IMG/VR virus record: IMGVR_UViG_3300027734_000094
Location: 1 to 53,672 of that record
Source of the DNA: a virus
DNA: 53,672 nucleotides
Reading direction: 5' to 3' (one strand)
Part shown: piece by piece, positions 2,273-19,614 of the stretch
Position numbering within the stretch: position 1 is the stretch's first letter
How the letters are laid out: the number at the start of each line of letters is the position of its first letter
Program-made: the position numbers and the translations under genes
The notes under the pieces: generated by a model
Told to the model about the DNA's origin: nothing
The model's database searches: none
Seen by the model: only the letters and a program-made list of their open reading frames with translations

Positions 2273-4089
2273 GGATTATCACCTACGACTTCGAAACTTT
2301 CTACGACAAGGCGTTCTCCCTGTCGAAGATGACTACGGAAGAATATATCCGTGATGACATCTTTGAGGTGATCGGCGTTTCCGTGAAGGTGAACGACGGC
2401 GAGCCGTGCTGGTGCTCAGGCACTCGCAACCAGATCAGCAGGTTTCTTGAGCAGTTCCCGTGGGATGACGCGCTGGCCGTGGCGCATAACGGTATGTTCG
2501 ACGCTGCCATCCTTAACTGGCACTTCGACATCATCCCCAAGATGCATGCCGATACGCTCTCGATGCTGCGCGCCATCGACGGCCCCGATGCGGGTAACAG
2601 TCTGGCCAAGGCAGCGGAGCGCTACGGGCTGGGCGTGAAGGGTACGGAGGTAGTCAACGCGCTGGGTAAGCGCAGGCTGGACTTCACACCCCAAGAGCTA
2701 GCCAGCTACGGCCTGTACTGCGTCAATGACGTAGAGCTGACCTATAAACTGTTTGCTGCGCTGGCTCCGCTGATGCCGAAGCTGGAGATGCGGCTGATCG
2801 ACCTGACGCTGCGTATGTTCACCGAGCCTAGGCTTGAGCTGGATACGGACGTGCTCACAGCGCACCTCAAGGATGTGCAGGAGAAGAAAGCCAAACTCAT
2901 GGAGGCCGTCGAGGCCGACAAGTCGGTGCTTATGAGCAACCCGCAACTGGCTCGCCTTCTGGGTAGCATGGAGGTCAATCCACCTATGAAGATCAGCCCC
3001 ACGACCGGCAAGCTAACTTACGCCTTCGGTAAGAACGACGAGGGCTTCAAGGCCCTGCTGGAACACCACAATCCGGGGGTGCAGGCGGTTGTCGCTGCCC
3101 GTCTGGGGGTAAAGTCTACCCTTGAGGAGACGCGCACCGAGCGCTTCCTGCGCATCGCCGAGCGTGGGCCTCTCCCTGTCCCGCTACGCTATTATGCAGC
3201 GCACACGGGCCGCTGGGGTGGCGATGACAAGGTGAACCTTCAGAACCTGCCGCGCAAGTCACCGCTCAAGAAAGCTATGAAGGCACCCAAGGGTTATCTG
3301 CTCATCGACTGCGACTCTTCGCAGATCGAAGCGCGCATCCTTGCGTGGCTGGCTGGGCAGGACGACCTCGTAGCTGCATTCGATGCAGGCGAGGATGTCT
3401 ATAAGATCATGGCTAGCGCCATATATGGTGTGCCTATTGAGGAGGTTACTCCCGAGCAGCGGTTCGTGGGCAAGACTACTATCCTAGGTTGCGGCTATGG
3501 CATGGGGCATGTGAAGTTCCGCGCGCAGCTCAAGACGTTCGGTGTGGACATGTACGAGGCAGAGTGCCGCCGCATCATCATGGTGTATCGTCAGACCTAC
3601 CCCAAGATCGTCAAGCTGTGGGAGCAGGCGGGGCGCGCGTTGACCGCACTTATGGACCAGAGGACCGCGCCTATAGGGCGTGAAGGGGTTGTGACCGTGG
3701 ACCTTATGGGTATCCGCCTGCCTAACGGCATGTACCTGCGCTATCCCAACCTGCGCATCGAGGTGAACAAGGCGACGCTCGTGGAGGAAGTTGTCTACGA
3801 CACTAAGAAGGGCCGCGCGACGATCTCTACCCGCATTTACGGTGGCAAAGTCGTCGAGAACATCTGTCAGGCGCTGGCGCGCATCGTGATCGGTGAGCAG
3901 ATGCTCATGGTCGCCCGCAAGTTGCCGGTAGTTATGACCGTACACGATGCCGTGGGTGCGCTGACACCCGAGGGCGAAGCTATCGAGAACCGCAAGTTCG
4001 TCGAAGACTGCATGCGCATCCGCCCCAAGTGGGCGTTGGGCCTGCCGCTTAACTGTGAGAGCAAGATAGGAGCAAACTATGGAACCTAG
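2269..4089 (+). CDS. polA-like: family A DNA polymerase with 3'-5' exonuclease
   Basis: The replicative polymerase, 606 residues. The N-terminal DEDD exonuclease shows YDFETFYD (Asp7, Glu9), AHNGMFDAAI and YCVNDVELTYKLF. The polymerase half shows the template-binding HTGRWGG, motif A LLIDCDSSQIEARI (Asp347; Glu354), motif B around Lys402 (KTTILGCGYGMG) and motif C VHDA (His559, Asp560). The residue matching E. coli Phe762 is Leu406. Motif C reads HDA where most family members have HDE. There is no 5'-3' exonuclease domain, as usual in phage enzymes. It overlaps the genes on both sides (4 and 11 bp). The start is fixed by the ATGA overlap, with GGAG upstream. It should copy the phage genome together with the primase-helicase and SSB encoded downstream. 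Confidence 0.97.
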   Translation: MRIITYDFETFYDKAFSLSKMTTEEYIRDDIFEVIGVSVKVNDGEPCWCSGTRNQISRFLEQFPWDDALAVAHNGMFDAAILNWHFDIIPKMHADTLSMLRAIDGPDAGNSLAKAAERYGLGVKGTEVVNALGKRRLDFTPQELASYGLYCVNDVELTYKLFAALAPLMPKLEMRLIDLTLRMFTEPRLELDTDVLTAHLKDVQEKKAKLMEAVEADKSVLMSNPQLARLLGSMEVNPPMKISPTTGKLTYAFGKNDEGFKALLEHHNPGVQAVVAARLGVKSTLEETRTERFLRIAERGPLPVPLRYYAAHTGRWGGDDKVNLQNLPRKSPLKKAMKAPKGYLLIDCDSSQIEARILAWLAGQDDLVAAFDAGEDVYKIMASAIYGVPIEEVTPEQRFVGKTTILGCGYGMGHVKFRAQLKTFGVDMYEAECRRIIMVYRQTYPKIVKLWEQAGRALTALMDQRTAPIGREGVVTVDLMGIRLPNGMYLRYPNLRIEVNKATLVEEVVYDTKKGRATISTRIYGGKVVENICQALARIVIGEQMLMVARKLPVVMTVHDAVGALTPEGEAIENRKFVEDCMRIRPKWALGLPLNCESKIGANYGT

Positions 4090-4729
4090 TCATACCTATA
4101 AAGAGGCGCTGCGCGGGCGTACACTCTTTGTCGATCCGCGTGGGGGCACCCGTTGCGGGCGCATGATCTGCGCCGAGTGCGGGGAGGTTGGCAGCGTTAA
4201 TTTCACCACCCTTCCGCCCCCGGAAATGCTCGATAAGAAGTTCGTGCAGAAGGGGTGGGAGGTTGATCCCAACACGTGCCCCAGCTGCGTTGTGAAGAAG
4301 AAGACTGCTAAGGCACTAGCTAAGAAGGAGCAGAAGGCCATGAATGCTATTACCACGAACGCGAAGCCTAACGGCACCCTGTCGGATAACCCGGTGCTCA
4401 AGGCAGTGAGTGCGGACACCCACAAGGCTACCGCCAAGATGCACCAGATGCTGGGCACCCACTTCGACGTCGATACCGGGCTTTACGCTGAAGGTTGGAA
4501 CGACGAGCGTGTCTCTAAGGAGAGTGGTATTTCCACTACCCACGTCACCGAGGTGCGCAACATCGCCTACGGCGAGCTCAAGGAGCCTGAGGAAATCACT
4601 CTGCTTCGCAAGGAGATCAAGTCCCTTAACGACCTGATTGGGGAAACCCTGATTGCCGCTCAGAAGGAGGTCAACGCTCTTAACAAGCGCGTGACTGAGC
4701 TCTGCACGAAGCTGGGCATCAAGCAATAA
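4079..4729 (+). CDS. zinc-ribbon and coiled-coil protein, possibly DNA-binding
   Basis: A 216-residue protein of unknown role. Near the N terminus, MICAECGEVG (CxxC, about residues 31-34) pairs with NTCPSCVVKK (CxxC, about 67-70), a likely zinc ribbon. A Lys-rich linker follows. The stretch DERVSKESGISTTHVTEVRNIAYG (about 142-165) looks like a helix-turn-helix. The C-terminal 45 residues (from about EEITLLRKEI) are a heptad-like coiled coil, which suggests an oligomer. The ATG overlaps the polymerase end by 11 bp and carries the shared AGGAGCAAAC leader. Similar zinc plus HTH proteins sit beside the polymerase in other aquatic phages; a replication- or transcription-related role is inferred. 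Confidence 0.8.
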   Translation: MEPSHTYKEALRGRTLFVDPRGGTRCGRMICAECGEVGSVNFTTLPPPEMLDKKFVQKGWEVDPNTCPSCVVKKKTAKALAKKEQKAMNAITTNAKPNGTLSDNPVLKAVSADTHKATAKMHQMLGTHFDVDTGLYAEGWNDERVSKESGISTTHVTEVRNIAYGELKEPEEITLLRKEIKSLNDLIGETLIAAQKEVNALNKRVTELCTKLGIKQ

Positions 4730-4757
4730 ACCGCCAAACTACCAAGGAGCAAACAAT

Positions 4758-5285
4758 ATGGTAAAGTCCCCCAATAAAGCCGCCAAAGTTATGGACGCGC
4801 TTAACGCACACCCTGAACTTGAAAACCACGAGATCGCCAAGAAGGTAGGATGCACTTCTACCTACGTGCGTATGATGCGTCGTAAGATGGTCCATGTGGA
4901 CGAGCCTGTGGAGTCGCTCGACATGAAGGAGGAACCTATGCTGCCGCTTGACCTGAACAATGCTCCTACACAGGAGGAGCTCGACGAAGTGCTGGAAGCA
5001 GCGTCCATCCTCAACCCTACTACTCTCGACGAGGTGCTCAACGAGCGTGGCTCGCGCTATGGCTCGTTCATCAAGCATGCCATTATCACGCAGCGTCTCA
5101 AGGCCGTGATGTCTGACACGCCCAACTGGATCAAGCTCGACGATGATATGGTGGAGTCGCTTGAGATGATCGCCCATAAGATGGGGCGCATCCTGAATGG
5201 TGACCCGTCCTACGCAGATAGCTGGGTGGATATCGCAGGCTACGCTCAACTGGTCGCCGACCGCCTGCAAGGGAAGGAACGCTAG
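4758..5285 (+). CDS. HTH protein with DUF6378-like C-terminal domain
   Basis: A 175-residue protein in two parts. The N-terminal 45 residues form a helix-turn-helix (HPELENHEIAKKVG, then CTSTYVRMMRRKM), followed by an acidic linker. The C-terminal half (about 95-172) matches the DUF6378 pattern common in phages and prophages: ERGSRYGSF, then TPNW, then ESLEMIAHKMGRILNGDP and a DSWVDIAGYA tail, which form an all-helical domain of unknown chemistry. Fusion of this domain to an HTH suggests a DNA-bound regulator or sensor. The start ATG follows the full shared leader AAGGAGCAAACA (4744-4755). Confidence 0.85.
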   Translation: MVKSPNKAAKVMDALNAHPELENHEIAKKVGCTSTYVRMMRRKMVHVDEPVESLDMKEEPMLPLDLNNAPTQEELDEVLEAASILNPTTLDEVLNERGSRYGSFIKHAIITQRLKAVMSDTPNWIKLDDDMVESLEMIAHKMGRILNGDPSYADSWVDIAGYAQLVADRLQGKER

Positions 5286-6718: not shown

Positions 6719-6735
6719 CCACACAGGAGCAAACC

Positions 6736-8274
6736 TTGCAGATCGTTAACGACTCTGTCCTGCTAGTAGACGCAGCCGACCCTACATCCATCCTCTCCCG
6801 CATCAAGAAGAGCAAGATGGTCGATGACCACGTTGCGGTCTGGTGGGGTCAGAAGGAAGCCGAAGCGCTCGCCGATCTCAAGCTAGAAGCGCCGTCCCCC
6901 ATCCTGCGGGACTACACGTGGACAGGGAAGTTCACCCCCTTCGACCACCAGAAGGCAACTTCTTCATTTCTCTCAATCCGCAAACGCGCGTTCTGCTTCA
7001 ACGAGCAGGGCACCGGTAAGACTGCTAGCGTCATATGGGCGGCGGATTACCTGATGAAGCTGGGGCTGATTAAGCGCGTACTGGTGCTGTGCCCTCTGTC
7101 CATCATGAAGTCGGCGTGGCAGCGCGACCTGTTTACCTTTGCTATGCACCGCTCGTGCGGCGTAGCGCACGGCACACCGACGCAGCGGAAGAAGGTCGTC
7201 GAGTCTGGCGCGGAGTTCGTCATCCTCAACTTTGACGGGCTGGCTGTGGTCAAGGACGAGGTAGCGGCAGGTGGCTTCGACCTGATCGTGGTGGACGAGG
7301 CCAACGCCTACAAGAACGCGCAGACCAACCGCTGGAAGGTGATGAACCAGCTCCTCAAGGCCACCGACCCGCGCCTGTGGATGCTAACCGGGACGCCTGC
7401 AGCGCAGTCCCCCGTAGATGCCTACGGCCTTGCCAAGCTGGTCAACCCCGAGAATTGCCCCCGGTACTACACCGAGTTCCGTGCCACGGTCCTGACCAAG
7501 GTCACGACGTTCAAGTGGGTCCCCAAACCCACGGCTCCGGCCTACGTGCATAATATCCTGCAGCCTGCTATCCGCTTCGAGAAGAAGGATTGCCTCGACC
7601 TGCCCCCGGTCACGCACGTAGAGCGCGATGCGCCACTCACCCCCCAACAGATGAAGTACTACAAGGTGCTCCGCGACGAGATGCTGCTAGAGGCAGCGGG
7701 TGAGGAAGTCAGTGCGGTCAACGCAGCGACCAAACTGAACAAGCTCCTGCAGATCAGCGGCGGCGCGGTCTACACCGACGAGGGCTCAGTGCTGGAGTTC
7801 GACGTGTCGAACCGGCTTAACGCGGTCCTAGAAGTCATTGAGGAGGCCAGCCACAAGGTGCTGGTCTTTATCCCCTTCACCCACACCATCGAGCTGCTTC
7901 GCGCTAGGCTGGAGAAGGAAGGTATCTCCTGCGGCGTCATCAACGGCAGCGTGTCGGTGAACAAGCGCAGCGATATTGTGCACCAGTTCCAGACCCAGAA
8001 GGACCCGCATGTGCTGCTCATTCAGCCGCAGGCTGCAAGTCATGGCCTGACGCTGACGGCGGCGGATACTATCATCTGGTACGCGCCTGTGACGAGTGTG
8101 GAGACCTACCTGCAAGCCAACGCCCGCATCGACCGTCCGGGGCAGAAGCACAACATGACCATCGTGCACATCAAGGGCAGCCCGGTCGAAGAGAAGCTGT
8201 ATACGATGCTACGTGGGAACATCGACAATCACCAGAAGCTGATCGATCTTTATCGTGATCTGGTGAGCGCGTAA
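6736..8274 (+). CDS. SNF2-type superfamily 2 DNA helicase/translocase
   Basis: A 512-residue helicase. It shows a Q-region (FDHQKATSSFL), Walker A EQGTGKT (Lys96), a DEAN box (VVDEANAYKN, about residue 187), motif III LTGTPA, and in the second RecA domain motif VI QANARIDRPGQKH near the C terminus. These are the marks of SNF2-like ATP-dependent double-strand DNA translocases found in many phage replication modules. The start is TTG at 6736, because the shared leader AGGAGCAAAC sits right before it and the next in-frame ATG would cut the conserved N terminus. It ends just before the second promoter-like element. It may remodel replication forks or displace bound proteins. Confidence 0.93.
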   Translation: MQIVNDSVLLVDAADPTSILSRIKKSKMVDDHVAVWWGQKEAEALADLKLEAPSPILRDYTWTGKFTPFDHQKATSSFLSIRKRAFCFNEQGTGKTASVIWAADYLMKLGLIKRVLVLCPLSIMKSAWQRDLFTFAMHRSCGVAHGTPTQRKKVVESGAEFVILNFDGLAVVKDEVAAGGFDLIVVDEANAYKNAQTNRWKVMNQLLKATDPRLWMLTGTPAAQSPVDAYGLAKLVNPENCPRYYTEFRATVLTKVTTFKWVPKPTAPAYVHNILQPAIRFEKKDCLDLPPVTHVERDAPLTPQQMKYYKVLRDEMLLEAAGEEVSAVNAATKLNKLLQISGGAVYTDEGSVLEFDVSNRLNAVLEVIEEASHKVLVFIPFTHTIELLRARLEKEGISCGVINGSVSVNKRSDIVHQFQTQKDPHVLLIQPQAASHGLTLTAADTIIWYAPVTSVETYLQANARIDRPGQKHNMTIVHIKGSPVEEKLYTMLRGNIDNHQKLIDLYRDLVSA

Positions 8275-8311: not shown

Positions 8312-8385
8312 TACCGGGGTGGCGAAATTGGCAACGCACCCTCTTACGTGAGGGAGAGTGGGGGTTCGAGTCCCTCCTCCGGGTA
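8312..8385 (+). tRNA. atypical tRNA-like gene
   Basis: A cloverleaf is visible. The D-arm is GCG/CGC (8322-8324 with 8335-8337) around AAATTGGCAA, a loop usual in Leu-type tRNAs. The anticodon stem is CCCTC/GAGGG (8339-8343 with 8350-8354), followed by a 5-nt variable region. The T-arm is GGGGG, TTCGAGT, CCCTC (8360-8376). The acceptor pairs TACC with GGTA and GG with CC, with one G-G mismatch. Two defects stand out: the anticodon loop TTACGT has 6 nt instead of 7, and one extra C (8377) sits before the 3' acceptor strand. The anticodon may be ACG (Arg) or TAC (Val); I cannot decide. No CCA is encoded (ACAACA follows). It could be a decaying or non-decoding tRNA. Confidence 0.6.
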
Positions 8386-8401
8386 CAACAAGGAGCAAAC
8401 T

Positions 8402-8809
8402 ATGGAAGACAACGCACTCCCTGCGGATAAGCTCGTCGCGGTCTACCGGAAAATCCGGGCCGTTATCGACAAGAAAGAGGAAGCGCACAAGGAAGAGATC
8501 GGTAACCTCAAGACTCAGCTCGATAAGGTCTCAGCTAAGCTGCTGGACATCTGCAACGAGCAGAACGTCGATGGGCTGAAAACCCCCGAAGGTACCGTGA
8601 CCCGCCGCACCGTGACCCGCTACTGGACGAACGATTGGGAAGCCATGTACCGGTTCATCAAGGAGCAGGACGCTCCGTTCCTCTTGGAGCAGCGCATCCA
8701 CAACGGCAACATGAAGCAGTACATCGAAGAGAACCCCGATACGCTGCCCATGGGCCTTAACGCAGACACCAAGTACGCGATCACCGTTCGCAAACCGACC
8801 AACAAGTGA
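8402..8809 (+). CDS. conserved phage hypothetical protein upstream of SSB (135 aa)
   Basis: The ATG at 8402 is chosen because the full shared leader AAGGAGCAAACT lies directly before it; longer readings would run back into the tRNA. The N-terminal 60 residues are a charged, heptad-like coiled coil (KIRAVIDKKEEAHKEEIGNL). The C-terminal part has TPEGTVTRRTVTRYW, then FIKEQDAPFLLEQRIHNGNM and a final ITVRKP strand. This architecture recurs next to single-strand-binding genes in many phages, always without a known function. It is probably a replication accessory protein; that is inference from position. Confidence 0.75.
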   Translation: MEDNALPADKLVAVYRKIRAVIDKKEEAHKEEIGNLKTQLDKVSAKLLDICNEQNVDGLKTPEGTVTRRTVTRYWTNDWEAMYRFIKEQDAPFLLEQRIHNGNMKQYIEENPDTLPMGLNADTKYAITVRKPTNK

Positions 8810-10077: not shown

Positions 10078-12885
10078 ATGGACGGGTTCGACCTACTGAC
10101 GACGGTTCAACCAGCTAACGGCTGGTTCGCCATCGTGGGTATCAAAGGGGATAGCAGGCAGCAGGAGCTAGTAGAGACACGCGAAGAGTTTGAAGAATGG
10201 GTTGAGCACTTCCAGCGCACAAAGCGCAATGTCTTCTTCGGGGTAGCTAAATATACAGACGGTTCTTCCCGTAAGAAGGACAACGTCCAAGCACTCAAGT
10301 CTTTCTGGATCGATATCGACTGCGGCCCCGGTAAGGGGTACGCCACGCAAGCAGAGGGGATCATCGCCCTCCAGCAGTTCTGCCGCAACGTAGGCCTGCC
10401 TAGGCCCATCATCGTTAACTCTGGACGCGGGCTGCACGTATACTGGGCGCTCGAAGAGGAGGTGACCCGCGCAGAGTGGGAGCTGATAGCCAAGCGCCTC
10501 AAGGAAGTCTGCGCTACGCAGGATATGCGGGTAGACAACAGCTGCTTTGAAGTAGCCCGCATTCTGCGTGTACCCGGCACTCACAACCACAAGGGCGATG
10601 AACCGGCACCGGTCTACGTTATTAACGAGGCCAAGCCTACGACCTACGAGCATATCCGCAAGGTGCTGGGGGTGAAGGAGCAGGCTGCGCCTGTAGCGCG
10701 CTCCGGGCGCGGTATGAGCGCACTGGGTAAGCAGGCGCAGGACAGCATCACCTCGGTCTTCAGTCACATAATGACGCGCGAGGATGGTGGGTGTGCGCAG
10801 CTCGCCGCCTGCTACAAGGAGAGGGAGACGCTCGCCGAGCCCCGCTGGTTCGACGCACTCTCAGTAGCTAAGTTCTGCAAGGACAAGGATAAGGCAGTAC
10901 ACAGGCTGTCAGCTGACCATCCGGATTACGACCCGGCAAAGGTCGAGCAGAAGCTGAAGCACATCGCAGGCCCGCACACCTGCGAGATATTCGAGAGCAA
11001 CAATCCGGGCGGTTGCGCGAAGTGCCCACACAAAGACAAGATCAAGTCCCCCATCGTGCTGGGGCGCGTCGTAGAGGTAGCCACGGAGGAGGATAACACC
11101 TTTGAGGAGGTAGCCGACAACGGCACGACCACCCTCTACAAGATACCCGAGTACCCGTTCCCCTACGTGCGTGGCAAGAATGGTGGCATCTACCGCCAAC
11201 CTGACGGTGCGGAAGCTGAGCCTATCTTCATCTACCCGTACGATCTGTACGTGGTTAAGCGCATGAGGGACCCGAATGAAGGTGGTGTGGTGTTGATCCG
11301 CTCGCACACACCCAAGGATGGCGTCGAGGAGTTCGCCATTGCTAACAGTAAGATCAGCGAACCCACTGAGGTACGCAAAGAGCTAGCCCGCAGGGATATC
11401 CTGTTGGCCAAGAAACAGTTCGACCTGCTGGTGGACTACATCATACGGTCGGCACAGGACCTACGTCATAACAGGAAGGCAGAGCAAATGCGTAATCAGT
11501 TTGGTTGGGCAGACGGAGATAAGAAGTTCATTATCGGGGACCGTGAGGTCAGCGCAGAGGGCACGTATCACAGCCCCCCGTCCTCAGTGACCCGCGCACT
11601 CACCGATCACATGGCACCCGCAGGGACGTTCGATAAGTGGAAGGAAGTGTTCGACCTCTATGGTCGCCCCGGCCTTGAGGCATCTGCCTTCGCTGCGGCT
11701 ACTGCGTTCGGTGCACCTCTGCTACGCTTCTCTGGTCAGCGCGGTGCGATCATCAACCTCGTGAACACGCTTTCTGGCACCGGTAAAACTACGATCCTTC
11801 ACATGGCTAACAGCGTATGGGGGGACCCTGAGAAGCTCTGCGCCAAGAAGGACGACACGTTCAACTCCAAGGTGTTCAAGCTCGGAGTGCTCTGCAACCT
11901 GCCGGTGTGCTTCGATGAGATGTCGAACATGGACCCTAAGCACCTTAGCGAGTTGGCTTACCTCATCACGCAAGGTACGGGTAAGGACCGCATGAAGGCG
12001 AGCACGAACGAGCTCCGGGTCAACCTCACGTCGTGGCAGACCATCGCACTCTGCTCGTCCAACCACTCGTTTTATGAGAAGTTGGAGTTCCTCAAGGATA
12101 ACCCGCAGGGTGAGATGATGCGCATCATCGAGTACAGCCTCGGCTACTCAGACGCTATCGACACCGAGACCGGCAAGCAGATGTTCGATCATCAGCTCAT
12201 GGAGAACTACGGTCACGCTGGGGATATCTACGCCCGCTACCTGATCGAGAACTACGAGGAGGTGAAGGCGCTGTATATGACGGTACAGAACCGCCTCGAT
12301 ACGATCCTCAAACTTACGCAGCGCGAGCGCTTCTGGTCCGCTACCGTCGCTGCCAATATCACTGGTATCCAGATAGCCGTGCGCCTCAAACTGTGTAGCT
12401 GGGATATCGCTGCTATCTTCAAGTGGGCCTGCAAGATGGTCCGCACTCTCCGCAACACGACGGTTCCCCCCATTGCGCAGGACAAGGAAGTCCTCGGTGA
12501 TTTCATGCTTCGCCACATGGACAATGTGTTGATCGTCAACGACGGGGTGGACCTGCGCAGTAAGATGCAGGGGGTGCCTGAGCTAGAGCCGAAGCGCGAG
12601 CTGATCGTACGCTACGAGCCCGATACGCAGCTAGTCTATATTACCGTAGCGGCTTTCCGCCTCTACTGCGCGGCGCGTAACATCGGTTATCGTGAGACCA
12701 TCAAAAACCTCAAGAACACTGGTGTATTCCTCAAGACGGACCAGAAGCGCATGTCCAAGGGCATGCGCGTGAACACCCCGCCTGTGCAGGCTATGATCCT
12801 AGACGGACGTCACTCCGACTTCGCTGCACTTGTGGATATGATCCCCGAAGACAAGGCCGACGCAGATGCGGGTAGCGGGGGTTGA
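10078..12885 (+). CDS. primase-helicase (AEP-like primase plus SF3/D5-like helicase)
   Basis: A 935-residue replication protein; GTG 10066 would add four residues and neither start has a clear Shine-Dalgarno. The N-terminal 190 residues look like a RepB/AEP-type primase: FWIDIDCGPGKGY (acidic pair), IIVNSGRGLHVYW, and RILRVPGTHNHK. The middle carries a PriCT-like stretch ending in paired cysteines (HTCEIF and GGCAKCPHK). The C-terminal half is a helicase: Walker A NTLSGTGKTT, a Walker B-like CFDEMSNMD, and a sensor-like LCSSNHSF. Together they should prime and unwind DNA for the family A polymerase. It overlaps the next gene by 20 bp and is the longest gene of the early block. Confidence 0.9.
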   Translation: MDGFDLLTTVQPANGWFAIVGIKGDSRQQELVETREEFEEWVEHFQRTKRNVFFGVAKYTDGSSRKKDNVQALKSFWIDIDCGPGKGYATQAEGIIALQQFCRNVGLPRPIIVNSGRGLHVYWALEEEVTRAEWELIAKRLKEVCATQDMRVDNSCFEVARILRVPGTHNHKGDEPAPVYVINEAKPTTYEHIRKVLGVKEQAAPVARSGRGMSALGKQAQDSITSVFSHIMTREDGGCAQLAACYKERETLAEPRWFDALSVAKFCKDKDKAVHRLSADHPDYDPAKVEQKLKHIAGPHTCEIFESNNPGGCAKCPHKDKIKSPIVLGRVVEVATEEDNTFEEVADNGTTTLYKIPEYPFPYVRGKNGGIYRQPDGAEAEPIFIYPYDLYVVKRMRDPNEGGVVLIRSHTPKDGVEEFAIANSKISEPTEVRKELARRDILLAKKQFDLLVDYIIRSAQDLRHNRKAEQMRNQFGWADGDKKFIIGDREVSAEGTYHSPPSSVTRALTDHMAPAGTFDKWKEVFDLYGRPGLEASAFAAATAFGAPLLRFSGQRGAIINLVNTLSGTGKTTILHMANSVWGDPEKLCAKKDDTFNSKVFKLGVLCNLPVCFDEMSNMDPKHLSELAYLITQGTGKDRMKASTNELRVNLTSWQTIALCSSNHSFYEKLEFLKDNPQGEMMRIIEYSLGYSDAIDTETGKQMFDHQLMENYGHAGDIYARYLIENYEEVKALYMTVQNRLDTILKLTQRERFWSATVAANITGIQIAVRLKLCSWDIAAIFKWACKMVRTLRNTTVPPIAQDKEVLGDFMLRHMDNVLIVNDGVDLRSKMQGVPELEPKRELIVRYEPDTQLVYITVAAFRLYCAARNIGYRETIKNLKNTGVFLKTDQKRMSKGMRVNTPPVQAMILDGRHSDFAALVDMIPEDKADADAGSGG

Positions 12886-13063
12886 GTACGAGGTGAACTG
12901 GCGAGGCTTCACCAGAGGCAAGTCGCTGTTCTTCCCCTGCCTAGATACGAAGGCGGCGTGGCGCGAGGTTAGTCCTGTGTTGCGCCGCCTGAGGTTCAAG
13001 GTGGTCTATAAAGGCGTAGTGGACCAGTCTGGAGTTAGGGGTTTACGAATCTGGCGAACGTGA
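12866..13063 (+). CDS. small conserved phage protein (65 aa)
   Basis: The gene starts at ATG 12866 inside the primase-helicase gene (20-bp overlap) and closes the early block. The product has WRGFTRGKSLFFPCLD, a pattern familiar from tiny podovirus proteins in which a basic segment precedes a conserved FFxPCLD. Then comes a helix and a terminal basic strand (LRFKVVYKGVVDQSGVRGLRIWRT). Its function is unknown. It is followed by a 3' untranslated stretch and a strong terminator. Confidence 0.6.
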   Translation: MRVAGVEYEVNWRGFTRGKSLFFPCLDTKAAWREVSPVLRRLRFKVVYKGVVDQSGVRGLRIWRT

Positions 13064-13142
13064 TAGAACGTCCTCGGAAGTTTGCTCCTTCCATTTCACT
13101 CTCCCAACTCCCCCGCAGCCCCCCGCGCTGCGGGGGTTTTTT
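13064..13142 (+). ncRNA. candidate 3'-UTR-derived antisense RNA
   Basis: This 79-nt stretch follows the last early stop codon and ends in an intrinsic terminator, the usual build of a 3'-UTR-derived small RNA. It contains GTTTGCTCCTT (13080-13090), the exact complement of the leader AAGGAGCAAAC that covers the ribosome binding sites of early genes at 1321, 4758 and 8402. Ten of the 11 positions also match at 4079 and 6736. Whether a stable RNA accumulates is not known; the call rests on complementarity and architecture only. Confidence 0.35.
13110..13142 (+). terminator. intrinsic terminator of the early block
   Basis: CCCCCGCAGC (13110-13119) and GCTGCGGGGG (13127-13136) form a perfect 10-bp stem with a 7-nt loop, followed by TTTTTT (13137-13142). 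It stops rightward transcription. Read leftward there is no U-run, although the late block also ends here (stop at 13141-13143). Confidence 0.93.
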
Positions 13143-16100
13143 ATTGTACGAACCGGCGCTGCGCGGCGATGTCCTTAGGCGCGGTCTTCTTGTCGAACTG
13201 AACGCCTTCCACTGTGCGCGCACGGATTTTACCGCGCGACTTCATGGACTCCTGTACCGTCTTCATGCTGATTACGAACTCAGGGTCCGGATAAGTGCGA
13301 TTGAACGGTACTACGTTATCCTCCCAGAACTGCCGGAAATCATCCTGCGTCTTGAACTCGCCAGCCATAGCTTTGCGCTCGATAGAGTTGAGAATCCCCT
13401 TACGCTCACCTTCGATACGCGTCTCGTTCTTGGCACGGGTGATGTAGTACTCTTGTATGCGACCAAGGCGCGGGGACCGCAGGCCAAGCATGTCGCGGAA
13501 CGAGTCCGCAGCGGTCAGCTCTCCCTTCGGAATGAGGACGTCCCCTCTCCGGTTCTTAATGCCTTCACTCGCGTTGTAGGCTGCAGTGACCCAACTGCGG
13601 GCAAAGGCTGGGGCTATCTTGGTAAGGCCTCCCTTGGTGTCACCTTCTTTGAAGCTGTCCAAAGCCCGCAGGTACTGCGCTACCATGCTCAGCCCGGCGA
13701 TATTGGCTATGGCAGTCTGCACCGCTGTGTCTTCCATAGAGTCGCCCGCGACGGCATCGCGGAACCACATGTTCTTGAGGTCGAGGGTAGTACGGCTTGC
13801 CGTCTCAGTGCCGGTAAGGGCAGATATGGGGCCAGTGGTCAGGATATCTGCGAGCGACATACCCCCCACCTCAATAGCGCCAAACTTGTCGTTCATCCAC
13901 GAGCGGAAGAAGATGTCGGGGTTGTACGCAGTGCGCGGGTCGTCGGAGGCCATCATCGCGCGGACGTCCTCATCATCATCGTCGTCATAACCGAAAGCAG
14001 CCATGAAGGCGTAGGTCATCGCGCTGTACAGCGGCATACCCATGAGGCCACCGAACATACCGGCCATCATCATGACGCCGGAGAACTCCTTTACCGCACC
14101 TGCGCGCTCCGCGCCCGTACCCACTGCCATGTCACGGATAGCGCCCACCATGAACTTGGTCTGCAGAAGCGGATGCATCTTGAACAGGAACAGAGGGCGT
14201 GTGTACGTACCCTTAGCAAGGCTCGGACGCTCAAAGCTGGAGAAGTCGCCCAGCGTATCACGCACGACGCTGACAGCCTGCTCAAGGGCGTAGTTGCGGG
14301 CTTCTTCCTCCGTGGCGTTGGGGTTCTGCTTCTGGTACTTATCAAGCGCTAGCTCGAACGTCATATAGTACGCAGACTGGCGGGTGATGTTCTCGGTACC
14401 TGTGAACAGGAAGCTCATCATCTTACCAGTGACAGCCCCTGTATCCTGTACAACGCGCTTCACGCCGGTTCCCCGGACCTTAGGCACTGAACGTTCGTTC
14501 TGTACGAGCGTGTCAGTCACCATATCGAGGATGCCGCGCTCCTTACCCGCGCGCATAGCCCACTGTAGGTCAGCGTTACTCTTTACGAAGTGCGAGCCAT
14601 TCACGTTGGGCATTATGGCATCGATGCGGTCACCGAACGTAGTGTGCTCACGGTTGACCTTTACCCGGCCAAGGCTATCCCAGACCTGCATGTACTTAAC
14701 CCACATAGCGGTGCCCTTGGCAACGCCGTAGTCGCGCCAGAGACGCGGCACAACGCGGATCGGAATTGAGGTCATATTGAACATCGCTGTCGATGCACTG
14801 GTCAGGTAGTAGTAGTACGCTGCCCGGTTCATCAGGTTCATCGCCGCATTCTGCGGGTCGGGCTTGAGCTCTTGGTTAGCCCGCTTCTCCAGCTCCCGTA
14901 CGAAGATACCCATCTTTGCACGTTCCGTAGTCGGGCGTTCCTTTTCGTTAGCGATATCCCGTGCGATATCCACTGCACCGCGTATCCTACCTGCGTAGGC
15001 GAGTTTGCTAAGCTGATTGGCATACGACGTAGCCTGCTGCCGGAAATGCAGCTCCACGTTAGGTGAGAAACCTGCAATCTCCTTGGCGCGCATCAGGCGG
15101 CGACGGACAGAGCGCTCGGGAGTCGTCTGCAGCCAAGTCTCATAGATAGCACCGACCAGCTCATCCATATCGGTACGGCCTGTGCTATTAGTCTGACTAC
15201 GTGCCTTCTCCACGATATCGAACACGCGCTGCAGGATAGCGTCCTCGCCCTTGATCTGATCCTGCAGCTCCGCGATGTCGTAGCCGGTTTTGATGACTCC
15301 TGAGTTCTTTTCGGGGTCCACACCCAGTCGCGCAGCGACAGCCTTCTGAGCACGTTGCAGCTCCCTCACCGACTCGAAGGTGTGGAACTCTTCCTCACGC
15401 CCGGAAGCCTTATCCTCGCTTACGCGCAGCCAGTACTTACCTTCACGCATGAGAGGGAAGTAGTCCTTGGCGAACAGATCGGAGTTGATATCCCAGAAGA
15501 TATCGCCCGACTTCTTTGCATCATCAGGTGTACTGATCTCGCGCATCAGCTTAGCGCGCATGTCTTGGATGCGGGTCGCCTGTTCCTTGTCGGTAACGCT
15601 GTTGATGCGCTCGTCAAGAAGTGCCAGCTCGGCGTCAAACATGTCTTTATAGAACTCGCGCATCTGCAGGTAGACCTTGTGGCCGTTCTTTTGCTCGCCC
15701 AGCTTCTCCCAAGCGTCGTAGGTATCGCGGATGCGGCGCGTCATCTCAGTGAGCTGCTCGACTTGGGCACTCACCTTCGTGTTGTCGATAGCAGTGGTAG
15801 TAAGCGCCTTGAGCTTGGGGCGCAGATCACCTTTACCCTTTGCGACCAGCTCCTTGATCTCAGCTATGGTGCGCTTGGCCAGCGCCTTGTCGTTCGAGTT
15901 GGCTACGATACGCTTTTCGATTTCGACGAGTACCTTATTGTTCGTCAGCGCCTCATCCCGCGTGGCAAATTCATCCGGCGACACCTCGTTAATACGTGAG
16001 GTGAACATAGCCGTAGCCAGCTGCGCGCTGCCGTACTTGTCAACGAAGTTCCGGATAAGGCGTGCGACCTTGTCGCTGTGCTCATTTATACGGTTCTTCA

Positions 16101-19100
16101 TACTGTTCATTTTATGTACGTAGTCATCCACAGCGGCTAGCGCCGTATGGAACTGCGGAGAGTAGAGCGACTTGGCCCAGTTGAGCAGCCCGGATGTCGG
16201 CATAGCCGTAGCCATACCTTCCATGAACTTAGGGCTGATCGCATCGATGTTCTCGGTAACGGCCTTCTGGTAGATCGACGAGTCATGCGCCGAAGCCATC
16301 TCCTCCATGCCGTCATTCAGCCCCGCAGTGCTAAACGTGTTTTTCACACGTTGCGCGCCCTTGCTCAGAGCCTCGGTAGCGCTCTTCAGCTTCTTGGCAT
16401 TCGGCTTAGAGGTCTTGGGGCGAGCGTACTTAGGTACGAGCGTAGCGCCAATATAGCGCATACCCTTAACTGCGGTGCTCTCCTGTTTTCCGTCCACGAC
16501 CATATCGTGCGCCGCGCGGAGGATAGCGGCTACGTCGCCGTCGCTGATCTTGAGGCTAAAGCCAAGCCTGCGCGCAAAGTCACGCACGACTGTAGCTAGG
16601 CGCTGCATAATTGTAGGTTCGAGCACACCCACTTCGGAGCGCTCTGCAAGAACTTCCTCAACAGCGCGGGCCAGTGGATTGGCGTCCTGTGCGTATGCGC
16701 CCGAGTTAGCCTTCCGCCATTTATCGACTTCAGCCCTGAGGTTGGCGTTACCCCGGTAAAGTGCGGTCAGCACGCCATCAAGATTGTTCCGGAATAGTTT
16801 AGCCAAACCGACATGGCCCAGACCTTCGTGGAACAGGACAGCCTTGACGTCTTCGATGGAGTCGATGTTGTCGGCAATGAGATAGACTGTACCATCAGGA
16901 GCAACGAGACCACGCGCATCGGTAGCGCCATCGCGCTCGATAGCCGCACGCAGCCGGGCGTCCTTGATATCCGCAACAGACTTAACCACGGTTACGGGGT
17001 TAGTGCTCTTCCACTTGGATACGATGTTATCAACGAGAGCCTGCACCTGCTCTATAGGCGTACCCCTAGCGGGCTTGGCAGCGCCCCTACGGTACTTCTG
17101 GACCTTGGCTTCCTTGAGGTCGATCCGAGCATCGCGGGCTTCAACCTTCTCGGCCTTGGTATCCGCGCCTTCCGCCCTACCTAGACGCTCTTGTACTGCT
17201 GCGTTACCGATGCGCTGTTTAGCACCCAGCTTCTCGTCTTGCCGCGTCTCCACCATTGTCTTGAGTGCGGCGCGGGCCGGGTTCAGCAGGCCGTTCTTAA
17301 CCGCAGCGCGGAGGCGTTGGTTGGCCTCCATGCGGGCAGCTTCGGCAGCTTCCTTTTCTTCGGCAGACGCATTGCGTGCGGTGCTAGCGGCGTCCAGTGC
17401 GGCCTTCTCTAGCTTAGCAATAGCGTCGTTGGCTACCTGTTTGCCGTTGACCATACGGTACGCATTGGGGCGGTTCATCCGCTGAAGGAGCTGTGCGCGC
17501 TGGTTGTTGTCAATCTGCCCTGCTTCGCGCGCAGCGTCCACCTCACTGACGAAGCTCTGCACCATACGAGTGGCGACGGTAGGCGCTTCCTGTTCAACTC
17601 GCGCGGGTGACTCAAGCTCTTCAAGCGCAGCGGGGGCCTCGGGGATGTACGGAGTGAGCTCCATCATCCGACCATAGACTTGGTCCGAGAAGTCCTGCAG
17701 CGTTTTGGCCTTCAGCACTTCCTCAGGCTTCTTGCCCAGCCTCGTCTCCGCTACGAGCTTATACGGTGCGTTGGTGTCCGTAGGGTCGTAGTCTACCTTG
17801 TAGACGGCATTCTCAGGAGCCTGCGCACGGAGCGCATACTCAATGTCGCCAAGGGTCTCTTCACGTTGCTCGGCCTCACGCTGCTGAAGTGCCGCAGCGC
17901 GCTCTTGGTTGGCTTGGGCTTCTTGGAGCACCTGCTCCTGTAGTGCGGCTTTCTCTTCCGACGAGGTAAACCGTTGTGCGTTGAACTCCTCGCGCTTGGC
18001 AGCTTCACCCGGCGCTTCCTGCATGGGGAGCGCGCCAAACATATCGGTGGTCTCGGTGTCCTTCGGCCTGCGACCACGCGAGTAGCGCGGGCCGGGGCCA
18101 GAGTCCGCAATGCTATATAGGTCGTCCAATGTCAGCCCGGTCGCGGCTTCCACTTCGCTCTGGAGCTCCGGCTCGACCCCGATACGCCGGATAAGCGCAT
18201 CGGCCTCATTAGGTGAGAAAACGGTGCGGACAGGAGTAGGCGCAGCCTGCGCAGGTGCTCCCCCTGCCTCTTGCTCATAAGCCTGCTGCATAGCAGCCTG
18301 CTCTTCAGGGTCTACCGGAGGTGGAGCGAACTCTTGCTCGGCACCGGGCATACCGGGCGCATTGATATCCGGCTCAGGCGAGGGCTCAGCGCCCGCTGTA
18401 CGCGCAGCGCGCTCCTCTTCCTGCTGCTGACGTAGAGCTTCTTCCTGTCGGGCAAGTGCATCCTTCTGTGCGGCCATACGCTTTACGACCGTGCGCGCTT
18501 CTTCCTCACTAAAGCCGCGCTGGATGAAGCGCTCGACAGCGGCATCCTTGACCTCAGGAGTAGCATTAGGCGGAAGCGCGTCGAGCTCTTTTTTGACATC
18601 TTGGGCGACCCCGGCCCGGACTTCTCGATGCCCGCCGTAAGCACCGGGGATGAGGGACGCGATACCTGCTTCAGCGGCGCGACCGGCAACGCCAGACATT
18701 AGGTCAACATCATACCCGGCGCGCTTCTGCGCTAGGTTACTAGCGTACTGCTCTTGGCCTTCCTGTATGGCTTCAGGGATAGCTTCTTCCGCCGCGCCCG
18801 CAACCATACCTCTAGGCAAGCTACGCTTTACGACTTCGCGCTCAACACCTGCTTCTGCAACCTTAGCCGCTGCCCTACGCCCGATAGCACTACTGATTTG
18901 GCGCGGGAGGCCGGTTGCCGAAGCAACAGCACCAAGAACGGTACCTAGCGCAATCTGGTCGAGATTCTCCCCGCCATATTCCTGCGCCTTGGTAGCAGCG
19001 GCGGTAGCCTGCTCTTCGTTGGCACCGTGCTCGCGCGATGCGCGGTACATAGCGTCGTAGATGTCACCCTTAATTGCGCCAGCGCCCGAAGCAGCGCCGA

Positions 19101-19614
19101 GCATGAGGGGAACCCCCGCACCTCCCGTAGCAACAGCAGCCCCGATAAATGGAAGCGCAGAGCCGACAAGGTTAGCGGTTGACTCCAACGGCGAGGAAAG
19201 GAAGTTCTGCCCTGCAGCTGCGATCTCCCCCAGCGCGCCCTTACCCTTGGCGGCTTCGCTGCGCGCTGCGTTGATCTTCTCCTGCCCGCGAGATTCCGAA
19301 GAACGCAGATCGTGCGCGTACTGGCTCACATCTTCTAGCGCATTGGACGCGACGTTGCCCGCACCAAAGACATCAGTAAGGGTCTTGCCTACCCCAGTAA
19401 GACCTTCAAACGCCTGAAGGGGGATATCCGCAAGGTACGCTGCTGCGTTACCGACAACACCTGACCGCTCCAGAGCATTCTCAGGCTGCGGTGGGATACC
19501 CGCTTCAGGGAACTTACCTAGGACGTCTGCGACTACCTGCTGTTTGGTCAACCCATCAGGACCGTTAACGCGGTAAATAACGCCGTTCTTACCGGTGATC
19601 TGATAGGTGGGCAT
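13141..19614 (-). CDS. giant polyvalent internal virion protein (2157 aa)
   Basis: At 2157 residues this is the largest gene. The N terminus (MPTYQITGKNGVIYRVNGPDG) is a small strand-rich opening seen on phage injection proteins. Gly/Ala-rich, possibly membrane-active helices follow (about 140-190), then a long charged, coiled, low-complexity part (about 330-850). Around residues 929-934 there is HEGLGH, followed by GLAKLF. In polyvalent phage proteins an HE-xx-GH-xGL motif marks a zincin-like metallopeptidase domain; the His spacing differs from classic HExxH. The C-terminal 900 residues are helical and end in a region like the large polyvalent protein-associated domains. It is probably packaged in the capsid and ejected with the DNA. 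It is the last gene of the late transcript. Confidence 0.85.
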   Translation of the reverse strand: MPTYQITGKNGVIYRVNGPDGLTKQQVVADVLGKFPEAGIPPQPENALERSGVVGNAAAYLADIPLQAFEGLTGVGKTLTDVFGAGNVASNALEDVSQYAHDLRSSESRGQEKINAARSEAAKGKGALGEIAAAGQNFLSSPLESTANLVGSALPFIGAAVATGGAGVPLMLGAASGAGAIKGDIYDAMYRASREHGANEEQATAAATKAQEYGGENLDQIALGTVLGAVASATGLPRQISSAIGRRAAAKVAEAGVEREVVKRSLPRGMVAGAAEEAIPEAIQEGQEQYASNLAQKRAGYDVDLMSGVAGRAAEAGIASLIPGAYGGHREVRAGVAQDVKKELDALPPNATPEVKDAAVERFIQRGFSEEEARTVVKRMAAQKDALARQEEALRQQQEEERAARTAGAEPSPEPDINAPGMPGAEQEFAPPPVDPEEQAAMQQAYEQEAGGAPAQAAPTPVRTVFSPNEADALIRRIGVEPELQSEVEAATGLTLDDLYSIADSGPGPRYSRGRRPKDTETTDMFGALPMQEAPGEAAKREEFNAQRFTSSEEKAALQEQVLQEAQANQERAAALQQREAEQREETLGDIEYALRAQAPENAVYKVDYDPTDTNAPYKLVAETRLGKKPEEVLKAKTLQDFSDQVYGRMMELTPYIPEAPAALEELESPARVEQEAPTVATRMVQSFVSEVDAAREAGQIDNNQRAQLLQRMNRPNAYRMVNGKQVANDAIAKLEKAALDAASTARNASAEEKEAAEAARMEANQRLRAAVKNGLLNPARAALKTMVETRQDEKLGAKQRIGNAAVQERLGRAEGADTKAEKVEARDARIDLKEAKVQKYRRGAAKPARGTPIEQVQALVDNIVSKWKSTNPVTVVKSVADIKDARLRAAIERDGATDARGLVAPDGTVYLIADNIDSIEDVKAVLFHEGLGHVGLAKLFRNNLDGVLTALYRGNANLRAEVDKWRKANSGAYAQDANPLARAVEEVLAERSEVGVLEPTIMQRLATVVRDFARRLGFSLKISDGDVAAILRAAHDMVVDGKQESTAVKGMRYIGATLVPKYARPKTSKPNAKKLKSATEALSKGAQRVKNTFSTAGLNDGMEEMASAHDSSIYQKAVTENIDAISPKFMEGMATAMPTSGLLNWAKSLYSPQFHTALAAVDDYVHKMNSMKNRINEHSDKVARLIRNFVDKYGSAQLATAMFTSRINEVSPDEFATRDEALTNNKVLVEIEKRIVANSNDKALAKRTIAEIKELVAKGKGDLRPKLKALTTTAIDNTKVSAQVEQLTEMTRRIRDTYDAWEKLGEQKNGHKVYLQMREFYKDMFDAELALLDERINSVTDKEQATRIQDMRAKLMREISTPDDAKKSGDIFWDINSDLFAKDYFPLMREGKYWLRVSEDKASGREEEFHTFESVRELQRAQKAVAARLGVDPEKNSGVIKTGYDIAELQDQIKGEDAILQRVFDIVEKARSQTNSTGRTDMDELVGAIYETWLQTTPERSVRRRLMRAKEIAGFSPNVELHFRQQATSYANQLSKLAYAGRIRGAVDIARDIANEKERPTTERAKMGIFVRELEKRANQELKPDPQNAAMNLMNRAAYYYYLTSASTAMFNMTSIPIRVVPRLWRDYGVAKGTAMWVKYMQVWDSLGRVKVNREHTTFGDRIDAIMPNVNGSHFVKSNADLQWAMRAGKERGILDMVTDTLVQNERSVPKVRGTGVKRVVQDTGAVTGKMMSFLFTGTENITRQSAYYMTFELALDKYQKQNPNATEEEARNYALEQAVSVVRDTLGDFSSFERPSLAKGTYTRPLFLFKMHPLLQTKFMVGAIRDMAVGTGAERAGAVKEFSGVMMMAGMFGGLMGMPLYSAMTYAFMAAFGYDDDDDEDVRAMMASDDPRTAYNPDIFFRSWMNDKFGAIEVGGMSLADILTTGPISALTGTETASRTTLDLKNMWFRDAVAGDSMEDTAVQTAIANIAGLSMVAQYLRALDSFKEGDTKGGLTKIAPAFARSWVTAAYNASEGIKNRRGDVLIPKGELTAADSFRDMLGLRSPRLGRIQEYYITRAKNETRIEGERKGILNSIERKAMAGEFKTQDDFRQFWEDNVVPFNRTYPDPEFVISMKTVQESMKSRGKIRARTVEGVQFDKKTAPKDIAAQRRFVQ

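Follow-up and report, generated by a model that had tools for sequence, protein, structure and literature searches.

Several phages encode antisense RNAs that act on their own transcripts. Lambda OOP and aQ, P22 sar, and P1/P7 c4 block the translation or stability of mRNAs of the same phage, and in c4, the complementary sequences lie in loops and the ribosome binding site (RBS) is covered; in the sections of a 2025 review that we drew on (PMC12197685), OOP, aQ, sar, c4, and STnc6030 are each assigned one main target. Other phage RNAs, VpdS (VP882), PreS (lambda), and 24B_1, act in trans and are associated there with host genes, Hfq networks, or lysogeny (PMC12197685). In the same sections, none of these three is described as repressing a regulon of several early replication genes, and no small RNA (sRNA) governing several early genes of the phage that encodes it appears in this open-access source (PMC12197685).

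Here, we analyzed a viral DNA stretch of 53,672 nucleotides (IMG/VR record IMGVR_UViG_3300027734_000094; hereafter, the window), which quite probably encodes a trans-acting sRNA of ~68 nt that has its own promoter and would mask the Shine-Dalgarno sequences of a replication/recombination regulon. Like OOP, aQ, sar, and c4, the predicted RNA is a short phage RNA directed against mRNA of the phage itself, and like VpdS, PreS, and 24B_1, it would be phage-encoded and trans-acting. Whereas the antisense RNAs of the first group, as covered by those sections, have one main target located mostly opposite or beside them, the RNA considered here would address six or more leaders scattered along the same strand, and its pairing code appears to have been rewritten between lineages. 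The OOP-type cis-antisense arrangement does not apply, with targets 4.7 to 13 kb away on the same strand.

In bacteria, sRNAs with anti–Shine-Dalgarno loops, such as cuckoo RNAs with CCUCCUCCC, pair with many RBSs through a CUCC-type seed held in a stem-loop. The phage RNA is likewise predicted to expose a CUCC-type seed in a stem-loop, but its loop is UUUGCUC rather than CCUCCUCCC, and cuckoo RNAs differ from it in their motif and in their connection with bacterial chromosomal genes. We know of no cuckoo-type RNA whose seed and targets have been recoded lineage by lineage.

An antisense block complementary to early leaders

A first-pass annotation of the window, made from the sequence alone, had proposed that the region behind the last early gene carries an exact 11-nt complement of a leader shared by early genes. 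The match was confirmed: GTTTGCTCCTT at 13080-13090 (+ strand) is the exact reverse complement of AAGGAGCAAAC at 1309-1319, 4744-4754, and 8390-8400. The near matches listed in the annotation are also present as AAGGAGCAAAC-type leaders with one mismatch each at 4067-4077 and 6724-6734, although the position 4063 given for the former was 4 nt off, and the complement suggested near position 20 corresponds to GAAGGAGCAA at 17-26.

Watson-Crick complementarity of at least 10 nt to the 13064-13109 region was found in 6 of 19 early leaders of the window. Candidate target leaders, all on the + strand, precede ORF 31-915 (GAAGGAGCAA, 10-nt complement), the VRR-NUC/Hjc-like gene at 1321-1638 (Pfam Hjc, PHROG 93; 11 nt, exact, at 1309-1319), ORF 4079-4729 (TAGGAGCAAACT at 4067-4078, with the 11-nt complement AGGAGCAAACT at 4068-4078), the DUF6378 gene at 4758-5285 (11 nt, exact, at 4744-4754), the SNF2 helicase gene at 6736-8274 (AGGAGCAAAC at 6725-6734, 10-nt complement, conserved in many relatives), and a Mu Gam-like gene at 8402-8809 (AAGGAGCAAACT at 8390-8401, 12-nt complement, co-varying with the loop). 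The VRR-NUC, DUF6378, and SNF2 genes had been named as targets before and keep this assignment, while the target at 8390 is amended to the Mu Gam-like gene. The latter, located beside the SNF2 helicase gene, is the commonest target in relatives. Ten of 14 members of the Gam-like family match Pfam PF07352 (best E value, 7e-8; the window copy is below the curated cut-off), and the protein is likely a DNA-end-binding nuclease inhibitor. A tRNA gene at 8313-8384 (Rfam, 42.6 bits), the only kind of Rfam match above threshold in the window, is located 5 nt upstream of the Gam-like leader at 8390.

At least six leaders with a complement of at least 9 nt were obtained in only 3 of 20,000 dinucleotide shuffles, which, together with conservation in relatives, bears out the earlier view that a chance match is improbable; a chance anti–Shine-Dalgarno match was ruled out by the shuffles, by conservation, and by the diagonal seed/leader counts presented below. 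The region around 13043-13128 is the sole place on the + strand of the window that is complementary to at least three early leaders. RNAduplex energies alone did not separate target from non-target leaders within the window, whereas across the set of relatives pairing of each RNA with its own leaders exceeded swapped pairing.

Predicted hairpin and terminator

Comparison of relatives shows conservation of an RNA hairpin and of promoter and terminator signals, along with a co-evolved pairing. Based on promoter spacing, fold z score, and conservation, the predicted sRNA spans 13075-13142 on the + strand (~68 nt, with the 5′ end placed to within ±3 nt). The 11-mer forms the loop and flanks of a GGAAG-UUUGCUC-CUUCC hairpin at 13076-13092 (stem GGAAG/CTTCC and loop TTTGCTC in the DNA), so that the seed complementary to the three leaders and co-evolving with leaders is presented by the loop. 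A strong terminator, annotated earlier at 13110-13142, is indeed found there: an intrinsic terminator with a 10-bp stem, a 7-nt loop, and T6, whose position is conserved in relatives.

The fold z score of the 13070-13142 RNA is −4.9, mostly from the terminator; 13064-13110 alone yields −0.3. Since the terminator accounts for most of the score, the case for the hairpin rests on covariation. Because hairpins whose loops have 6 or 8 nt were misaligned by MAFFT, stem pairs were counted on rows with 7-nt loops and by anchoring. In 26 distinct 7-nt-loop rows, 99.2% of cells were paired and four of the five pairs were changed on both sides (GC/AU/CG), which was matched in 0 of 500 shuffles (a value that ignores relatedness). 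When the register of the stem was slid, pairing dropped to 45 to 77%. In the anchored comparison, stem positions 1 to 4 were paired in all of 38 distinct hairpins. Rfam 15 contains no family matching the RNA at the gathering threshold (best sub-threshold match, 18.4 bits versus 58.8).

Promoter signals at the end of a small ORF

The site lies just 3′ of a conserved 65–amino acid ORF ending in GLRIWRT (12866-13063, + strand). Members of this family, found in 197 loci, are 64 to 66 amino acids long and share a C-terminal GLR(V/I)WR; neither Pfam nor NCBIfam yielded a match to the product of the window ORF. The 3′ end of the ORF overlaps the predicted sRNA promoter. A −35-like box, TTTACG (13042-13047, + strand), is located within the Gly-Leu-Arg codons that end the ORF, and a −10-like box, TAGAAC (13064-13069, + strand), directly follows the stop codon, with a 16-nt spacer between the two. 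In relatives, the −10 counterparts are TATACT, TATAAT, TATACA, etc. A −10 box with at least four of six consensus positions at a distance of 15 to 19 nt was found in 133 of 146 distinct junctions compared to 64 of 561 control windows (relatedness uncorrected). Where distinct relatives encode leucine at the −35 box (132 cases), 125 use TTA or TTG (relatedness uncorrected); the share of these codons is 28% for other leucines of the small ORF and 27% in long ORFs. The 3′ codons of the ORF thus seem constrained by the overlapping promoter.

A separate sigma-70-like promoter at the ORF end is likely, and the RNA is probably the product of its own sRNA gene rather than of a 3′ untranslated region (3′UTR) alone, because of the promoter overlap and the constraint on TTA/TTG leucine codons. 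In silico, the signals are those of a discrete transcription unit with a promoter and a terminator, while the location in the 3′UTR of an mRNA, with which the RNA has its terminator in common, is that of 3′UTR-derived sRNAs. The first-pass annotation had favored the latter layout; the position between the last early ORF and the terminator stands, but the conserved −35/−10 boxes and leucine codons indicate that the RNA probably has its own promoter. It is nevertheless conceivable, if rather unlikely, that the RNA acts in the same way but is processed from the 3′UTR of the early operon and has no promoter of its own, in which case its level would report early-operon transcription and provide negative feedback. 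The site right behind the last early ORF and ahead of the operon terminator would suit such processing, as would the weakness of the promoter boxes in the window (four of six consensus positions for both −35 and −10), but the −35/−10 spacing and the TTA/TTG constraint at −35 are conserved in relatives, which speaks against this alternative. As a 3′UTR, the RNA would also arise by read-through from the early operon.

The sRNA terminator meets a convergent late gene on the − strand (13141-19614; DarB-like PHROG), with which the late operon ends at 13141. Its 2157–amino acid product has similarity to DarB-like antirestriction proteins.

Conservation of the locus in relatives

Searches of IMG/VR with the primase and helicase yielded 272 loci, of which 197 contain the small ORF, with 146 distinct junctions. 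In most of the loci, the ORF stop codon is followed by a short RNA stretch and then by an intrinsic terminator; the RNA locus is kept in a large family of uncultured phages. When the exact 17-nt hairpin was searched for across IMG/VR, 84 of 114 new matches were located behind the small ORF and followed by terminator-like sequence. Most of the other 30 are a single match repeated in apparent coding sequence of other phages; nearly all of the 30 have no terminator and look like chance matches. The same junction and sRNA are present in a single binned contig, assigned to an estuarine Actinomycetota metagenome-assembled genome (JAFMIT010000073.1), which is a weak hint at the host, too weak to use, or a binning error. 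No integrase or repressor was found within the scanned part of the proteome.

A direct search revealed no cultured phages with the sRNA. There is no such hairpin at the 3′ end of the early block of Pseudomonas phage Rollin and Rhizobium phage RHph_TM27A. GGAGCAA, GGAGCGA, and GGAGCTA leaders are absent from the fetched early regions of these two phages and of Xanthomonas phage Xp15 and Acinetobacter phage Effie; AGAGGTA leaders occur twice in Xp15 and once in Effie. Since GGAGC-type leaders are absent in all four distant relatives, the leader extension appears to be linked to the RNA, and an old RBS habit alone is an unlikely explanation. Relatives that keep the leader but lose its complement, which would have spoken against the annotated pairing, were not encountered among these four.

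Co-variation of loop seeds and leaders

The loci were sorted according to the seed in the loop, and leaders close to an RBS were counted on the + strand, with start sites called by a script. Loci with the TTGCTCC seed have 100 GGAGCAA, 4 GGAGCGA, and 4 GGAGCTA leaders. The corresponding numbers are 5, 9, and 0 for TCGCTCC loci and 12, 1, and 28 for TAGCTCC loci, while TACCTCT loci have 15 AGAGGTA and 0 GGAGCAA leaders. The seed-by-leader table is thus diagonal, the observed class assignment being the best of 120 possible, and it is still largely diagonal for 9-mers. The same leader motifs are almost absent from late genes, which are on the − strand.

The leader of the Gam-like gene tracks the seed in classes A to G. 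Seed GTTTGCTCC is accompanied by Gam-like leader GGAGCAAAC, AGTTGCTCC by GGAGCAAC or GGAGCAAT, AATCGCTCC and its relatives by GGAGCGAC, GTTCGCTCC by GGAGCGAAC, and GTTAGCTCC by GGAGCTAA (the loop/leader pair is also given as GTTAGCTCC/GGAGCTAAC). In two further cases, the Shine-Dalgarno sequence itself is switched: seed GTTACCTCT goes with leader AGAGGTA (also given as the loop/leader pair GTTACCTCT/AGAGGTAAC), and seed GTTAGTTCC with Gam-like leader GGAACTGAC, with one G-U pair. Additional pairs were found with no predefined seed, CTATCTCCTTG/CAAGGAGATAG (L227), TCTCCTTCAGT/ACTGAAGGAGA (L235 and L244), TTTCTCCAAGG/CCTTGGAGAAA (L157 and L162), and TTGTTTCTCC/GGAGAAACAA (L039). In some TAGCTCC-class loci (L029, L198-L200, L151-L153, and L203), the Gam-like leader is unmatched; several of these match other leaders.

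Over all loci, the longest complement to own leaders was 7.9 nt on average compared to 6.2 nt when leaders were swapped (the maximum of 300 swaps was 6.6 nt); relatedness is uncorrected in the shuffle and binomial values. The primase tree implies at least 10 changes of seed class, and contrasts of independent pairs were all concordant and none discordant, with too few pairs for significance in each test. Compensating changes between leader and antisense element, which had been suggested as a check, are therefore found in many lineages: the seed is complementary to targets encoded elsewhere, and this complementarity is held by compensatory change. The joint change of loop and RBS sites across many relatives is the decisive evidence and, with the lack of GGAGC-type leaders in the four distant relatives, strongly supports the central proposal of the first-pass annotation, that an RNA from this site pairs with the shared early leaders.

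The co-evolution also bears on other readings of the motif. Several phage sRNAs act on host genes, according to the consulted sections of the review (PMC12197685), and the main targets could be host mRNAs, with phage leaders serving as a sponge from which the RNA is freed only when early transcripts become scarcer. We regard this as improbable, since the seed co-evolves with the start sites of the phage itself, at ribosome-binding distance and in several genes per genome. Even less probable is that the motif, which overlaps the RBS, is bound in both leaders and hairpin by a phage protein, as an RNA or DNA site of the translational repressor or operator type: conserved-loop hairpins are often protein sites, but the loop here is the complement of the leader rather than an identical sequence, and in many lineages a change in the loop is matched by a leader change that restores complementarity. 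A generic anti–Shine-Dalgarno decoy mimicking the 16S tail, or an ordinary terminator-proximal hairpin matching as CUCC against GGAG, is equally improbable despite the resemblance of the CTCCTT part of the seed to the 16S 3′ end, because the specificity, which co-varies, reaches 3 to 5 nt past GGAG, there is no preference for leaders that are extended differently, and some seeds lack CTCC (GTTACCTCT).

Proposed action of the sRNA

Our results suggest a model in which transcription of the sRNA starts at a separate sigma-70-like promoter where the early block ends, with a possible contribution from early read-through, and stops at the intrinsic terminator. The 5′ hairpin of the RNA would present a seed loop. 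The loop would pair over 9 to 12 nt with the Shine-Dalgarno region of early mRNAs for the Gam-like protein, SNF2 helicase, VRR-NUC, DUF6378 protein, ORF 4079, and ORF 31. Masking of the RBS would lower translation of these replication/recombination genes, plausibly as infection enters the late phase. Pairing would cover the Shine-Dalgarno sequence and the bases on its 3′ side, so that repression is to be expected and the target genes are most likely turned down; that the RNA is produced, represses, and does so at this time is what we infer. The RNA could switch the phage from early to late expression, act as a constant brake, or exclude co-infecting relatives, roles that the sequence does not tell apart.

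The locus may represent, though we put this forward tentatively, a new widespread family of phage sRNAs in which one RNA governs an early replication regulon and seed and leaders are recoded in each lineage, perhaps as private codes. If so, such codes would perhaps stop the sRNA of a co-infecting relative from acting on a phage's own early genes. Most phage antisense RNAs described in the review sections cited above have one neighboring main target or act on the host, whereas here many early genes of the phage itself would be addressed. Compensatory changes that recur between an RNA loop and several mRNAs in each genome are rarely so clear without experiments. They make a protein-free shut-off of early genes directly testable and offer a natural set of orthogonal sRNA/leader pairs.

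Variant junctions

Seventy of the 146 distinct junctions fall outside the recognized seeds. Most of these 70 cannot be clearly matched to the Gam-like leader, and some carry different hairpins or a pair of them. A possible second pairing region, GGTTG 3′ of the hairpin and CAACC 5′ of the Gam-like Shine-Dalgarno sequence, occurs in L007, L008, L020, L022, L026, and L047 but was not retained, as the association across all loci was no more than suggestive (Fisher P = 0.06). In the L208-L222 and L233-L264 groups, different hairpins occupy the site (GTTGTCGGGAAGCAGTTGCCGAC and AACAATGTTAGTTGCC) and do not clearly match the Gam-like leader; they possibly use another pairing mode. In the L140-L166 group, L012, L029, and L036, the sRNA is longer, with either a second hairpin or an additional unpaired CUCC stretch (such as GTTTCTCCTC ahead of GGAAGTTAGCTCCTTCC), and perhaps carries two seeds.
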